A stretch of 24,891 bases of DNA from Flavisolibacter sp. (GTDB lineage Bacteria; Bacteroidota; Bacteroidia; Chitinophagales; Chitinophagaceae). The DNA lies in NCBI GenBank assembly GCA_013695175.1, contig JACDAZ010000131.1, positions 1 through 24,891 on the forward strand, written 5' to 3'. Shown here piece after piece: positions 2,694 to 14,688 of this stretch (the first letter of the stretch is position 1; each line of letters starts with the position of its first letter). A program made the position numbers and the translations under genes. The notes beneath the pieces were generated by a model, which saw nothing but the letters and a program-made list of their open reading frames with translations, searched no databases and was not told the origin of the DNA.

Positions 2694-4070
2694 ATGTATA
2701 AATTAAAACCACTTCTTTTTTTGTTTGCCGTAATCATATTTACAGCCTGTAAAAAAGAAAAAGATATTCAAGCACCCCCTCCTCCACCGCCACCTGTAAC
2801 TCCAACTGTTACACTGGCTGATTTGCACAAGGACACAGCGCTTTTATATGCAAGGGATATATTTTTATGGTATAATCAAATACCTACAACTTTTGATGCA
2901 CGTTCTTATGCTGATCCGGATAAAATAATGAGAGCACTAAGGCAATATAGTAGTGAGTCTGGTTTTTCGCAACCGGTAGACAGATGGAGTTTTGGTGTGG
3001 ACAGACAAACATGGGATAATGTAAGTTCTGGTATTTCAGGAGATTTTGGAATAAGTGTATTCTTTTATAACGATAATGATTTGAGGGTTAAATTAGTTGA
3101 AAAAGCTTCTCCCGCAGGACAGGCAGGCATAAAACGCGGATGGAGAATTACCAAGATTAATGGGAGCACTAATATAGCACCATCAAACGCCAATGTAATA
3201 GTTAACTCCGTATGGTATAGCAACAGTACAAATTTTACTTTTCAAAAGCCTGATGGTTCCAGTGTAGATCTTACGCTTACTGCAAAACAATACCAGGAGA
3301 ACCCGATTTTTGTGGATACCATATATACAAGGGGTAATGACAAAATTGGTTACATGGTGTTCAATTCCTTTTTGGGAGATACAACTGCAATCTATAACGA
3401 TTTTCAACGTGTATTTTCTAAATTTTCACAGGCAGGTGTTACAGAAGTTGCTGTTGACCTTCGCTATAATGGTGGGGGATATGTAAGTGTACAGGATAAA
3501 CTTGCAAATTATTTGGTTAATTCATCAGCAAATGGTAATGTAATGATGAAGCAGGAATTTAATAATAAATACAGCAGGTATAACAGCACCACCAATTTCC
3601 AAAAATTAGGAAATTTAAATCTTAACAGGATATTCTTTATAGTAAGTAGCGGTTCTGCTTCTGCCAGTGAACTTTTAATAAATAATCTTAAGCCTTATAT
3701 GAATGTAATGCTGGTAGGACCAAGCAAAACATATGGAAAACCTGTTGGTTATTTCCCAATTGAAATTGGTAATTGGTATATTTTACCCGTATCCTTCAGA
3801 AGTGTAAATAAAAATAATGAAGGTTCATATTTCAATGGGTTTGCTTTAAATCACACTTCAATGGACGGTTTAGATAAAGATTGGGGTGACGAAAATGAAG
3901 CATCTCTTGCCAGTATATTGAATTATATTTCTACAGGTGCTTTTCGATCTCAGGCGGCAGGTAGTCAGTCACAATCATTTCAAGAAAAACCAGAGGTTAA
4001 GGCTGTTAATAAAAAACTTGATGAAATTGATTTTAAGGGTATGATAGATAAAAGACAATTACTTAAATAA
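2694..4070 (+). CDS. S41-family (C-terminal processing peptidase-like) lipoprotein protease
   Basis: Predicted periplasmic or outer-membrane lipoprotein serine protease. The ATG at 2694 gives MYKLKPLLFLFAVIIFTAC, a lipoprotein signal with lipidated Cys19; a GTG seven codons earlier is open but spoils the signal. After a KKEKD and poly-Pro linker comes an alpha-helical N-terminal domain. A PDZ-like domain follows (about 113-175: GDFGISVFF, EKASPAGQAGIKRGWRITKING). The S41 core has DLRYNGGGYV, the nucleophile in GSASASE (central Ser323) and the general-base Lys349 in TYGKPVGYF. At 458 residues it fits the Bacteroidota S41 lipoproteins. Catalytic residues are intact. It is monocistronic, ending at a strong terminator. 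Substrate unknown; processing or clearance of envelope proteins is likely. Confidence 0.9.
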   Translation: MYKLKPLLFLFAVIIFTACKKEKDIQAPPPPPPPVTPTVTLADLHKDTALLYARDIFLWYNQIPTTFDARSYADPDKIMRALRQYSSESGFSQPVDRWSFGVDRQTWDNVSSGISGDFGISVFFYNDNDLRVKLVEKASPAGQAGIKRGWRITKINGSTNIAPSNANVIVNSVWYSNSTNFTFQKPDGSSVDLTLTAKQYQENPIFVDTIYTRGNDKIGYMVFNSFLGDTTAIYNDFQRVFSKFSQAGVTEVAVDLRYNGGGYVSVQDKLANYLVNSSANGNVMMKQEFNNKYSRYNSTTNFQKLGNLNLNRIFFIVSSGSASASELLINNLKPYMNVMLVGPSKTYGKPVGYFPIEIGNWYILPVSFRSVNKNNEGSYFNGFALNHTSMDGLDKDWGDENEASLASILNYISTGAFRSQAAGSQSQSFQEKPEVKAVNKKLDEIDFKGMIDKRQLLK

Positions 4071-4075
4071 AATTA

Positions 4076-4104
4076 AAGATCCCGCACCAGCGGGATTTTT
4101 TTTT
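4076..4104 (+). terminator. Intrinsic terminator of the S41 protease gene
   Basis: The stem ATCCCGC / GCGGGAT (4079-4085 and 4090-4096), loop ACCA, is followed by a run of more than eight T, starting 8 nt after the stop. Confidence 0.9.
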
Positions 4105-4724: not shown

Positions 4725-5792
4725 ATGGCAACACCCAAATTTATTACAGCAAAGCAATCTTTTCATGTTGAATTAAAAAACAGGATCAACCAGTATTTTG
4801 AATCTACAGGAAAAGCATTAACCGGGAATAAACATCTTTATATAAAAGCAGCTGTACTGGTAACGATCTTCGTTTCCTTATATATACACCTGGTTTTTTT
4901 TACACCTATTGTAGTCATTGCATTATTAGAGTGTGTTTTATTAGGTTTTACAACAGCAGGTATAGGATTTAATATTATGCACGATGGTGCACATGGCAGC
5001 TTCAGCAAAAAGAAAATAATAAATGAATTTGCTGCTTTTTCACTTAATGTATTAGGTGGTAGTTCTTTTATGTGGAATATTAAGCATAATGTTATTCATC
5101 ATGCTTATACAAATATTGATGGTGTAGATGATGATATAGATATACAGCCATGGATGCGCATGAGCCAAACGCAACCAAGATTAAAAATGCATAAATACCA
5201 GCATGTTTATTTCTGGGGGTTATATGCATTATTATATATATTATGGGTATTTGTTTTGGACTATCAGAAATACTTCAAGCGTAAGATTGGTGCTATGCCC
5301 CTAAAAAACATGTCTGTAAAAGATCATGTTATTTTCTGGAGTTTTAAAATGCTTCATCTATTTCTTTTTGTTATCCTACCACTATTAACTGTCGGATTTA
5401 TTCCTTGGCTTGTAGGTTATCTTATATTTGCCCTGGTTGCCGGCTTTGTTATCAGTATAGTTTTTCAGTTGGCACATACTGTGGAGCACACGGAATTTCC
5501 TATGCCCAATGTAGATACAGGTAAGTTGGAAGATGAGTGGGCAATACATCAATTGAAAACAACGGCTAATTTTGCTCCACGTAATAAATTTATCAGTTGG
5601 CTAATTGGTGGTTTGAACTACCAGATTGAGCATCATTTATTTCCAAAGATTTCGCACATTCATTATCCTGCTATTCGCAAAATTGTAAAGGAGGCTTGTG
5701 AAGAGTATGGAGTACCTTATATAGCATATAGAAGAATGAGTTATGCTATTGCTTCTCATGTCTCATTTTTAAAACAAATGGGAAGAGCATAG
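4725..5792 (+). CDS. Membrane fatty-acid desaturase (front-end/acyl-CoA desaturase-like)
   Basis: Integral inner-membrane di-iron enzyme that inserts a double bond into an acyl chain using O2 and an electron donor. The three histidine boxes are intact: HDGAH (86-90), HNVIHH (121-126) and QIEHH (300-304). An additional QLAHTVEHTEF occurs near 245-255. The Gln replacing the first His in box three, and the IDGVDDDID after box two, are typical of delta-5/delta-6 or linoleoyl-CoA-like desaturases. Hydrophobic segments flank the boxes (about 45-80 and 160-245). No fused cytochrome b5 domain is present, so the electron donor is separate. The ATG at 4725 gives 355 residues; a TTG four codons earlier is open but less likely. 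Regiospecificity cannot be inferred. Confidence 0.9.
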   Translation: MATPKFITAKQSFHVELKNRINQYFESTGKALTGNKHLYIKAAVLVTIFVSLYIHLVFFTPIVVIALLECVLLGFTTAGIGFNIMHDGAHGSFSKKKIINEFAAFSLNVLGGSSFMWNIKHNVIHHAYTNIDGVDDDIDIQPWMRMSQTQPRLKMHKYQHVYFWGLYALLYILWVFVLDYQKYFKRKIGAMPLKNMSVKDHVIFWSFKMLHLFLFVILPLLTVGFIPWLVGYLIFALVAGFVISIVFQLAHTVEHTEFPMPNVDTGKLEDEWAIHQLKTTANFAPRNKFISWLIGGLNYQIEHHLFPKISHIHYPAIRKIVKEACEEYGVPYIAYRRMSYAIASHVSFLKQMGRA

Positions 5793-13032: not shown

Positions 13033-13074
13033 ATTTTTATTGGGGTTTGTTGTATTTTTATAATTCACCAAAAG

Positions 13075-13083
13075 AAAGGAGGT
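13075..13083 (+). promoter_or_regulatory. Strong Shine-Dalgarno sequence before a 15-codon ORF
   Basis: AAAGGAGGT sits with its AGGAGG core 5 nt before an ATG at 13088. Bacteroidota genes rarely carry such a site, and I noticed no other comparable one in this window, so it stands out as decisive for this start. Confidence 0.65.
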
Positions 13084-13087
13084 ATTC

Positions 13088-13135
13088 ATGACATCTACAG
13101 AATATTCATGGAAACCTTCGGTTAGTTTCGCCTAA
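13088..13135 (+). CDS. 15-codon leader ORF inside a structured RNA
   Basis: ATG at 13088 to TAA at 13133-13135 encodes MTSTEYSWKPSVSFA, preceded by an excellent Shine-Dalgarno at ideal spacing. The last five codons lie inside a stable hairpin (13108-13149) and the stop codon is within its 3' arm, so a translating ribosome would melt it. No run of a single amino acid is present, so classical amino-acid attenuation is unlikely. The sequence TATTCATG containing this ATG occurs again 20 nt later (13103-13110). It may be a regulatory leader peptide, or the RNA may be a small independent transcript. Function unknown. Confidence 0.45.
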   Translation: MTSTEYSWKPSVSFA

Positions 13136-13202
13136 CCGGGTTGCTCCATTAAAATATCTGTGACGCAAAGGCGTCATGAGCCACTATTTTTAGTGGCTTT
13201 TT
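13108..13202 (+). ncRNA. Structured leader or small RNA of three hairpins ending in a terminator
   Basis: Hairpin 1 (13108-13149) pairs ATGGA with TCCAT, AACC with GGTT and CGGTTAG with CTAACCG, around a six-base loop, with two small bulges (16 bp in total). Hairpin 2 (13161-13176) is TGACGC / GCGTCA with loop AAAG. Hairpin 3 (13179-13202) is an intrinsic terminator. Together they look like a cis-regulatory leader or a small RNA whose end is set before the transglutaminase-like gene begins at 13280. The GTCATGA at 13173-13179 can also pair with TCATGAC around the leader ORF's start codon (13086-13092), an alternative fold. It fits no riboswitch class that I know. Confidence 0.55.
13179..13202 (+). 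terminator. Intrinsic terminator upstream of the transglutaminase-like gene
   Basis: AGCCACTA / TAGTGGCT (13179-13186 and 13191-13198), loop TTTT, is followed by four more T. It lies 77 nt before the ATG at 13280, so a transcript from upstream would stop unless read-through is allowed. Confidence 0.85.
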
Positions 13203-13279
13203 AGTATAAATCTTTTTGTTAAAGAAGAATTTATTATCAAAAAATTTTTGAACTTTCAAAATCAATTTTTGCTGATTAA

Positions 13280-14323
13280 ATGAAATTTCTATTCTCATTT
13301 ATATTTTCATGGCTGTTCTGCTTTGGCAGTACAAGCCAGGGTAATTTTTATCCTGCAGGCAGGCAGCATCATGATCTTTTATCTATGGAAGCTATTGCCC
13401 CGGCCTTATTAGCCCAGCAACTTACTCTACCTTTCAAAACAGAAAGAGAAAAAGTAGAATCTATATTCAGATGGATAACAGACAATATTTCTTACCAGTC
13501 TAATTCTCCCATAATTAGATCAAGGCAAAACAAAAAACCACTTGAAGATGATGATACATCAATGGTTTTAAAACCTTTGAATGAACGTGTTGCTGAAAAT
13601 GTGCTGAGAAGGAGAGAGGCAGTCTGTGATGGATATGCAAGATTATTTAAAACACTTTGTGATTTTGCAGGTATAGAATCTGAATTAGTAACGGGTTATG
13701 CAACAGGCTATAGAACTACCATCTTCCGTTCCAATCATACCTGGAATGCTGTTTCTATAGATAATAAATGGTACTTGCTGGATGCAACCTGGGCTAGCGG
13801 ATATATAAACTACAGAGGTGACTATGTAAAACATTATGATGCGAAATATTTTCTGACACCTCCACAGCAATTTATAAGAGATCATTATCCTGAGGATATG
13901 AAATGGAGCCTTTTATCATTTCCTTTTTTCCCCGGTGAATTTAATCAATCACCTTTCCGGCACCAGGGCATGGAAAGAAATAAAATAAAATCATTCAGTC
14001 CACAAAAAGGAATTATTGAAACCAATGCAGGTGACACTGTGAAATTTGTATTAGAAACAACCATGACAGGAAGGGAAGCCTTTGTTTCAACAGATCCTTT
14101 TTTTGAATTAGCAATGCTTCCGTTTATAAATATTTATCTGAAAAACAACACTACCATTACTAAAAGGGACAATAAAATTTTCATAGAATATGTTTTACCT
14201 TCTTACGTATCAAATTGGTTATATGTAATAATGAATGGCGAAGTGCTTATGAGATATAAATTAAAAAATAAAAAAATTACAAAAACAGAGGTTTCTAAAA
14301 CTGAATCTTTTTTTTTCTGCTAA
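13280..14323 (+). CDS. Secreted transglutaminase-like (papain-fold) protein
   Basis: Exported protein with signal peptide MKFLFSFIFSWLFCFGSTSQ. A transglutaminase-like domain lies at residues 50-190. The Cys nucleophile is in RREAVCDGYARLF (Cys116), His is in SNHTWNAV (His153) and Asp in WYLLDATW (Asp168), the complete Cys-His-Asp triad. This arrangement matches the Bacteroidota/CYK3-like transglutaminase-core proteins, which cut or cross-link peptides; direction and substrate are unknown. Residues 220-347 form a beta-rich C-terminal domain (FVLETTMTGREAF, INIYLKNNTTITKRDNKIFIEYVLPSYVS). A structured leader with terminator sits upstream. Its stop codon TAA (14321-14323) overlaps by 2 bases the stop codon of the convergent HPF remnant. 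Confidence 0.85.
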   Translation: MKFLFSFIFSWLFCFGSTSQGNFYPAGRQHHDLLSMEAIAPALLAQQLTLPFKTEREKVESIFRWITDNISYQSNSPIIRSRQNKKPLEDDDTSMVLKPLNERVAENVLRRREAVCDGYARLFKTLCDFAGIESELVTGYATGYRTTIFRSNHTWNAVSIDNKWYLLDATWASGYINYRGDYVKHYDAKYFLTPPQQFIRDHYPEDMKWSLLSFPFFPGEFNQSPFRHQGMERNKIKSFSPQKGIIETNAGDTVKFVLETTMTGREAFVSTDPFFELAMLPFINIYLKNNTTITKRDNKIFIEYVLPSYVSNWLYVIMNGEVLMRYKLKNKKITKTEVSKTESFFFC

Positions 14324-14584
14324 AGATTTAAATAATTTTCCTTAATTTTTCCTTGCTGCCGGTCCACCATCTTTTCTTTTGATTTTCTTATCAGGGTTTG
14401 TAATTTATTTACTGCTTCATCAATTGACTGCTCAAAATCTGCTGCACTTTCTTTAACAAAAAGATCATTACCCGGAACTTCCAGCCTTATTTCACAATAA
14501 TCACTTTTTGTTGCCCTGTCAGGACCCTGGAAAAAAGTAACATTCGCTATGCTTAAAGCCTAAAGAAGATACTATTACATCCAT
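14320..14584 (-). pseudogene. hpf: Ribosome hibernation-promoting factor (HPF/RaiA) remnant with internal deletion and frameshift
   Basis: Reading the minus strand, ATG at 14584 starts MDVIVSSLGFK, the N-terminal strand of HPF. That frame then runs into TGA within about ten codons. In the shifted frame ANVTFFQGPDRATKSDYCEI continues through a RLEVPGNDLFVKESAADFEQ segment and SIDEAVNKLQTLIRKSKEK to TAG at 14322-14320. The join is near 14545. Compared with the family, roughly 24 residues (the first helix, about 'xxLxxFIxxKLxKL') are missing between the two parts and the frame is shifted, so a single-base sequencing error would not explain it. The gene is almost certainly non-functional; an intact copy may exist elsewhere. 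It overlaps the transglutaminase-like gene by 4 bases at its 3' end. Confidence 0.85.
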
Positions 14585-14688
14585 AATTTTATTTTTCTTT
14601 AATGATGCAGTTTTTATTCCAATATAATCCTGCAGCATTTATTTTTTAAATTCATTACTTATAATGATTTAATTTTCATCTTTTGCTT

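Follow-up and report, generated by a model that had tools for sequence, protein, structure and literature searches.

A Candidate Micro-mRNA of Chitinophagaceae with a Leader Antisense to the 16S rRNA 3′ Tail

Introduction

Leader-peptide attenuators unite a short open reading frame (ORF), hairpins, and a terminator. For Flavobacterium johnsoniae, McNutt et al. (2023, PMC9976891) describe ribosomes that keep the 3′ tail of their 16S rRNA hidden unless bS21 is absent, and an rpsU mRNA with an extended Shine-Dalgarno (SD) sequence that is read by the bS21-lacking ribosomes. According to the same study, extended SDs of the rpsU type pair with 16S rRNA over 9 to 13 bp at less than about −13 kcal/mol, and SD-dependent control is suggested to be limited to rpsU autoregulation in F. 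johnsoniae and 200 Flavobacteriales. Members of the family Chitinophagaceae are also poor in SDs, with values of 1% for Niastella koreensis and 2% for Chitinophaga caeni (PMC10783764).

Here we describe a conserved element within the window, by which we mean the whole 24,891-nt stretch of Flavisolibacter sp. DNA that was analyzed. A sequence-only reading of this DNA had pointed to a strong SD and a short ORF ending inside a hairpin, and had proposed either a translation-controlled attenuator or a small RNA with a peptide. Its premise that Bacteroidota rarely use SDs agrees with PMC9976891 and PMC10783764. However, it did not notice that the leader is complementary to the 16S rRNA tail as far as the ATG. 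We found no description of the element in the open-licence literature searched.

Results

Layout of the Element

The element spans positions 13053 to 13202 on the + strand and is composed of a −7-like promoter box, the sequence AGAAAGGAGGTATTC, an ATG and its ORF, the descending half of a rod-like structure, a second hairpin, and a terminator. The box, TATTTTTA (13053 to 13060, + strand), is of the TANNTT[TCG][AG] type that precedes the diverged copies described below, and we take it to be promoter-like, of the Bacteroidota TANNTTTG type. The extended SD AGAAAGGAGGTATTC (13073 to 13087, + strand) is a 15-nt antisense match to the 16S rRNA 3′ tail that reaches the base before the ATG. Within it lies the SD AAAGGAGGT (13075 to 13083, + strand), such that the start codon is 5 nt from the end of GGAGG and 4 nt from the end of AAAGGAGGT. 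The 15-codon ORF MTSTEYSWKPSVSFA and its stop codon occupy 13088 to 13135 (+ strand), with the ATG at 13088 to 13090 and the TAA at 13133 to 13135. The SD and 15-codon ORF singled out earlier are real features, far above chance expectation.

The region from 13060 to 13210 has a predicted folding energy of −45 kcal/mol, compared to −28.2 ± 3.25 kcal/mol for 200 shuffled sequences (z = −5.16). A scan of the window alone against Rfam gave 0 matches at the gathering score. At a permissive threshold, the lowest E-value in the window was for SAM-SAH on the other strand, at 19 bits compared to the 40 needed.

Distribution and Search Sets

A BLAST search with positions 13060 to 13210 against 58 genomes returned 17 genomes, including that of the window, at an E-value of 4e-20 or better, and one further match from another family at E = 0.002. 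These matches center on 13064 to 13160, and the terminator region is mostly swapped for other hairpins. A covariance model (R1) applied at E = 0.01 matched 86 of 344 Chitinophagaceae genomes. One match (G367) is false, which leaves 85 carriers in the family; five others (G110, G188, G252, G296, and G324) were counted on their E-values alone, all of which are 1e-17 or better. Such a search had been suggested by the sequence-only reading.

When R1 was used at E = 0.1 on 396 genomes of the order, 35 were matched, two of them falsely (G481 and G602), and 3 of the true matches come from another Chitinophagales family. A broader model (R2) recognized no copy beyond the order among 395 genomes of the class and 296 of the phylum. 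Both of these searches returned the same two genus members, and three marginal matches proved unrelated. Because the filters were strict and the genomes were samples, very diverged copies may have been missed.

A pattern scan over named genomes yielded at least 119 stretches, with titles for 80. Among the matches listed, the titles name Chitinophagaceae, Chitinophagales, loosely named Bacteroidota or Sphingobacteriales, and in one case Beijerinckiaceae; cultured carriers among these listed matches are Chitinophaga pinensis YS-16, Niastella species, and Segetibacter species. Two genomes (G251 and G476) have two matches each. One locus of G251 (L095) bears two copies of the element on its − strand, at 4001 to 4100 and 4961 to 5060, which are 960 bases apart.

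The 104 covariance model matches were reduced to 96 copies (94 distinct) by removing five matches with weak support (E = 0.002 or worse) and three that are non-homologous (L110, L114, and L115). From the pattern matches we dropped one chance match (L209), three that were cut off (L208, L172, and L124), and two repeats (L147 and L149). The larger set holds 145 distinct copies, of which 92 derive from the covariance model and 53 from a search pattern that itself demanded CATGG. A diverged set comprises the 86 of these 145 copies that are less than 93% alike. Alignment A3 contains 80 sequences, namely the window and 79 of the 86 diverged copies; it omits L004 (represented by the window), four copies with other apical hairpins (L079, L108, L126, and L158), and two with longer ends (L191 and L216). 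Swap tests were run on 77 of the 86 diverged copies. Single-base shuffles served as controls for accessibility, terminators, promoter boxes, and folds made with and without the SD kept unpaired.

A Stand-Alone Unit

A −7-like box matching TANNTT[TCG][AG] lies upstream of 83 of the 86 diverged copies, compared to a mean of 17 and a maximum of 25 of 86 for shuffled sequences. In 66 of the 83 boxed copies, the box is located 14 to 15 nt ahead of AAAGGAGG. Downstream, a T-run combined with a fold below −8 kcal/mol within the next 75 nt, which is a lenient definition of a terminator, is present in all 86 diverged copies (shuffled mean 27, maximum 36 of 86). In the window, the intrinsic terminator is located at 13179 to 13202 (+ strand) and is preceded by the second hairpin at 13160 to 13177 (+ strand), whose sequence is not conserved as judged by folding and comparison of the copies. 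As the sequence-only reading had noted, the terminator lies 77 nt before a transglutaminase-like ORF, which begins at 13280.

The genes flanking the element vary. We compared the nearest flanking ORFs at 119 loci, using mechanical ORFs rather than curated genes. On the downstream side, 59 point the same way as the element and 52 the opposite way; on the upstream side, the figures are 62 and 51. The biggest family of nearest-downstream ORFs has 10 members among these 119 loci. Because the neighbors are not conserved and occur in either orientation, the element is not a cis-acting attenuator or leader of a particular gene.

These observations bear directly on the proposal that the element is a leader or attenuator that controls the downstream gene in cis. 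The ORF, hairpins, and terminator do resemble a leader, and the gene for the transglutaminase-like protein (PF01841, 13280 to 14323) is downstream of 7 of 18 close copies, among them that of the window. However, the mixed orientation of downstream ORFs (59 versus 52) without a widely shared gene across 119 loci, and the terminator-like structure in 86 of 86 copies, both speak against such a role. A further argument concerns the pairing between the start region (13086 to 13092) and the base of the terminator (13173 to 13179) that had been noted previously. The two segments can indeed pair in the window. An equivalent 7-mer match, however, occurs in 0 of 86 diverged copies, and the pairing is therefore probably due to chance. 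The cis-acting interpretation is already largely refuted, and we regard it as highly improbable.

Two observations concern the genomic surroundings. On the − strand at 14322 to 14650, one frame piece matches the S30AE domain of ribosome hibernation factors (PF02482) with 37.5 bits. Since the S30AE match and the ORF preceding it are in different frames, this hibernation-factor-like gene looks frameshifted or misassembled. Separately, we considered and rejected an origin from a mobile element, for which no phage or plasmid match was found; the sole pattern match on a viral contig (L242) is an unrelated gene start.

We interpret the element as a putative free-standing micro-mRNA, roughly 140 nt long and presumably transcribed from its own box.

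Complementarity to the 16S rRNA Tail

Immediately ahead of the ATG lies a sequence antisense to the 3′ tail of 16S rRNA in the genus (GAAUACCUCCUUUUU). To locate the tail, we searched with the first part of a 16S motif given in PMC9976891. The tail reads GGAAUACCUCCUUUUU at all 16 loci recovered, which come from 12 of 38 genomes (10 from the genus of the window and 2 from other genera of the family). It was not found in the window's own genome or in family f3, and the tail of genus and family mates was used in its place. In the genus and in two other genera of the family (L326 to L341), the tail is GGAAUACCUCC and not GGAUCACCUCC or GGAACACCUCC.

Leader positions −1 to −14 match this tail in 98 to 100% of the 96 copies derived from the covariance model, and AAAGGAGGTATTC is present in 93 of them. 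At −15, 92 of the 96 copies have A or G, either of which can pair with U, and the match ends beyond this point. The leader in the window is predicted to form 15 continuous pairs with the tail of its genus mates, including one G-U pair, at −20.5 kcal/mol. By comparison, the rpsU leader from the same genome forms 11 continuous pairs at −17.0 kcal/mol, and GGAGGTATTC is found in 0 of the 50 rpsU leaders examined. Conservation of the TATTC segment could alternatively be due to the SD-pairing helix described below. We also observed that the A nucleotides at −17 and −18 (positions 13071 and 13070 of the window) are invariant, in 96 of 96 and 95 of 96 copies, respectively. This is unexplained by the 16S match, and thus conservation does not end where complementarity ends.

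The pattern AAAGGAGGTAT-N(0-8)-ATG is matched by only two sites in the window's genome, which are rpsU and the element. Across 18 genomes of the genus, its 35 matches tally as 14 for the element, 13 for rpsU, and 8 for other sites. A reversed-pattern control gave 11 matches, and those outside rpsU and the element are therefore at control level. In the order more broadly, rpsU leaders (L243 to L292) carry AAAGGAGGTAT in 19 of 50 cases and GG[AG]GGTAT in 29 of 50. The presence of the element does not track the rpsU SD. For example, G036 carries the element and its own rpsU is without an SD, and G010, G012, G017, and G019 are among the genomes that have an rpsU SD and are without a strong element match.

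The size and the promoter and terminator signals observed here would also suit an ordinary small RNA that acts in trans by pairing with other mRNAs and whose SD match is incidental. However, the most conserved segment of the element is the 16S antisense together with the start codon, and the reading frame is conserved as well. We find this explanation quite improbable.

A Conserved Reading Frame

The ORF is kept in all 96 copies derived from the covariance model, with 15 codons in 81 copies, 14 in 14 copies, and 13 in one, and its ATG lies 5 nt past GGAGG in 95 copies and 4 nt past it in the remaining one. Among the 145 distinct copies, the frame is kept in 144, with lengths of 15 (124 copies), 14 (19 copies), and 13 codons (one copy). 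The exception is a metagenome copy (L170) that has an in-frame TAA at codon 6 and an otherwise intact remainder, which may be an error or a decaying copy, or may amount to a natural experiment on the ORF. Only ORF lengths of 45, 42, and 39 nt are seen, whereas the part after the stop codon falls into all three classes modulo three (48, 58, and 38 of 144 copies). Insertions and deletions in the ORF are multiples of three or compensating pairs, of which there are three kinds (L051-type, L065, and L011). Moreover, the stop codon remains within the apical hairpin, in its stem or its loop, even when the hairpin has a different sequence (L079, L103, and L108). With its own promoter-like box, a terminator, and a frame that is intact in 96 of 96 and 144 of 145 copies, the element gives the earlier suggestion of a small RNA with a peptide support at the sequence level.

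Translation of the frame looks important, and the peptide itself less clearly so. The three codon positions vary equally (0.63, 0.68, and 0.64 bits in 120 copies), which suggests that the peptide is not clearly under selection. Many synonymous sites are frozen; for example, relative to the conserved tryptophan, serine is encoded by TCA in 128 of 130 copies at W−1, and threonine by ACA in 115 of 115 at W−4.

If the element were a peptide gene, a peptide of 13 to 15 amino acids of the form M.ST[DE].SW[KT]PSV.IA would act on a target, and the RNA features would only control its synthesis. Retention of the tryptophan in 91 of the 96 covariance model copies is in line with this, as are, in the larger set, V at W+4 (128 of 140 copies) and S at W−1 (130 of 140 copies). 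However, the same positions also pair in the rod or in the SD helix, one group of copies has [SN]LQxIHG in place of STEYSW, and no codon-position signature is apparent, which together make a peptide gene unlikely in our view. The hydrophobic membrane peptide typical of a type I toxin is not apparent on inspection, as the peptides of 13 to 15 amino acids look too short and too polar to span a membrane. Finally, KPSV is found in many copies of both the micropeptide and bS21. We regard this likeness to a segment of bS21 as probably incidental, because pairing constrains the CCT-TC sequence and the corresponding residues in diverged copies are WTLPV, WKRPV, or WMPVL.

The Rod and a Competing SD Helix

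The rod (13098 to 13160, 23 pairs as drawn) consists of a 7-bp apical stem and an imperfect extension. Its ascending strand (13098 to 13117, + strand) lies within the ORF, and its descending strand (13139 to 13160, + strand) has the 3′ end ATATCTG; both were assigned from pair counts in 80 sequences and from predicted folds. Between them is the apical hairpin CGGTTAG-TTTCGC-CTAACCG (13119 to 13138, + strand), whose stem arms are 13119 to 13125 and 13132 to 13138. The stop codon sits in this hairpin, as had been proposed, and the hairpin itself is confirmed, but the 16 bp first ascribed to it must be replaced by a 7-bp stem that extends into a longer and imperfect rod.

Across the 80 aligned copies, 82.9% of 1821 cells are paired in the rod, 116 are changed on both sides, and the covariation score is 0.204. 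The levels of pairing, two-sided change, and covariation were each reached by 0 of 500 shuffles, and that of further pair types by 1 of 500. Slid versions score lower on all of these measures, and sliding the rod by one column lowers pairing to 43 to 46%. Columns 66 and 73 of the apical hairpin, for instance, pair as GC in 36, AU in 13, UG in 11, and CG in 9 of the 80 sequences. Swap tests gave 0 of 2000 for the apical stem and likewise for the adjoining pairs, whereas codons 2 to 7, when tested against the tail, gave 215 of 2000, which is not significant. Most of the rod signal comes from the apical stem and its neighboring pairs, and the outer pairs in codons 5 to 7 are poorly kept. When the SD is forced to be unpaired, long-range rod pairs are predicted in 86 of 86 copies compared to 240 of 860 shuffled sequences, and the last 4 nt are paired to codons 2 to 7 in 79 of 86 copies compared to 32 of 860.

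A competing helix that pairs the SD has 96.8% of its 959 cells paired, compared to 41 to 54% for slid versions. It is without two-sided changes, and its 5′ arm is invariant. The free core of the element in the window is predicted to bury the SD (−21.6 kcal/mol), and to form the rod (−20.5 kcal/mol) when the 16S-complementary stretch is single-stranded. Without any constraint, the SD is buried in the predicted folds of 39 of 86 copies, compared to 185 of 860 shuffled sequences, and long-range rod pairs are already present in 44 of 86. The mean probability that GGAGG is unpaired is 0.221, which is no different from the 0.236 of shuffled sequences. Regulated burial of the SD is thus a suggestion, and selection for burial as such is not supported by these values. 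SD burial as the main conserved feature was therefore rejected, since accessibility is not above that of shuffles and burial is facultative by folding.

Discussion

As judged by comparison of its sequences, the element is a stand-alone unit with complementarity to the 16S rRNA tail, a conserved frame, and a conserved rod. We lean, though not strongly, toward the interpretation that it is a micro-mRNA for 30S subunits whose 16S tail is exposed, where both its translation and a role of bS21 would be part of the mechanism. In the Bacteroidota studied so far, the tail is tucked away by bS21, bS18, and bS6. Because the tail is normally hidden, the element RNA would be bound and read mainly by 30S subunits with a free tail, such as those that lack bS21 or are immature, in the manner demonstrated for rpsU of F. 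johnsoniae. The free RNA may bury the SD in its own coding region, and once the SD is occupied, the predicted fold is the rod; tail binding and folding may thus be coupled. The ORF would climb one strand of the rod and stop at its tip. We think that the element would respond to subunits with a free tail, which it would either hold or answer with a small peptide.

We tentatively put forward a more specific possibility, in which a small RNA targeting the 16S tail acts as a two-state sensor. A freed tail would take the buried SD, the rod would form, and a 15-codon read-out would proceed to the rod tip, thereby reporting or buffering 30S subunits that are deficient in bS21 or immature. The element would then be a second gene, beside rpsU, that is addressed to specialized ribosomes in Bacteroidota.

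Alternatively, the RNA itself could be the product, capturing free or maturing 30S subunits by their 16S tail as a decoy, chaperone, or storage form, while the ORF only positions or releases the subunit. The complementarity extends to the base before the ATG and would leave no spacer if fully paired, the equal variability of the codon positions and the frozen synonymous sites speak for this reading, and the rod is predicted in 86 of 86 copies with the SD unpaired. However, a purely structural RNA would have no need to preserve the frame, which 144 of 145 copies do, aided by compensating insertions and deletions. We judge capture by the RNA alone to be somewhat unlikely.

The element defines a conserved family of 13 to 15 codons in a different order from Flavobacteriales, with a 16S match longer than that of rpsU in the same genome. 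If the micro-mRNA is read by tail-exposed ribosomes, bS21-deficient ribosomes would have an output of their own besides additional bS21, and the concept of specialized bacterial ribosomes would acquire a simple and testable reporter.

Among known systems, leader-peptide attenuators share with the element a short ORF, hairpins, and a terminator, but the element is without a conserved downstream gene or a supported alternative terminator pairing. Dual-function and peptide-coding small RNAs (PMC5521070) are similar in having a promoter (in our case a promoter-like box), a terminator, a structured RNA, and a short ORF of their own. The ORF of the element is conserved (144 of 145 distinct copies), and its promoter and terminator sequence signals, which exceed those of shuffles, would fit an own transcript. 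Unlike these small RNAs, the element has a 16S antisense as its most conserved part and an ORF that is built into the rod.

The closest parallel is rpsU. As described in PMC9976891, rpsU exhibits an exceptionally long match to the 16S tail in bacteria that otherwise avoid SDs, and the same is true of the element, whose 15 bp at −20.5 kcal/mol, calculated with a different program from that of PMC9976891, qualifies as pairing of the rpsU type. In contrast to rpsU, the ORF of the element is not a ribosomal protein gene, as bS21 is encoded elsewhere (C74) in the same genome, and its 13 to 15 codons reside inside a structured and free-standing RNA with changing neighbors. The pairing of the element is also four base pairs longer than that of rpsU from the same genome, with two extra at each end, and it reaches the ATG.
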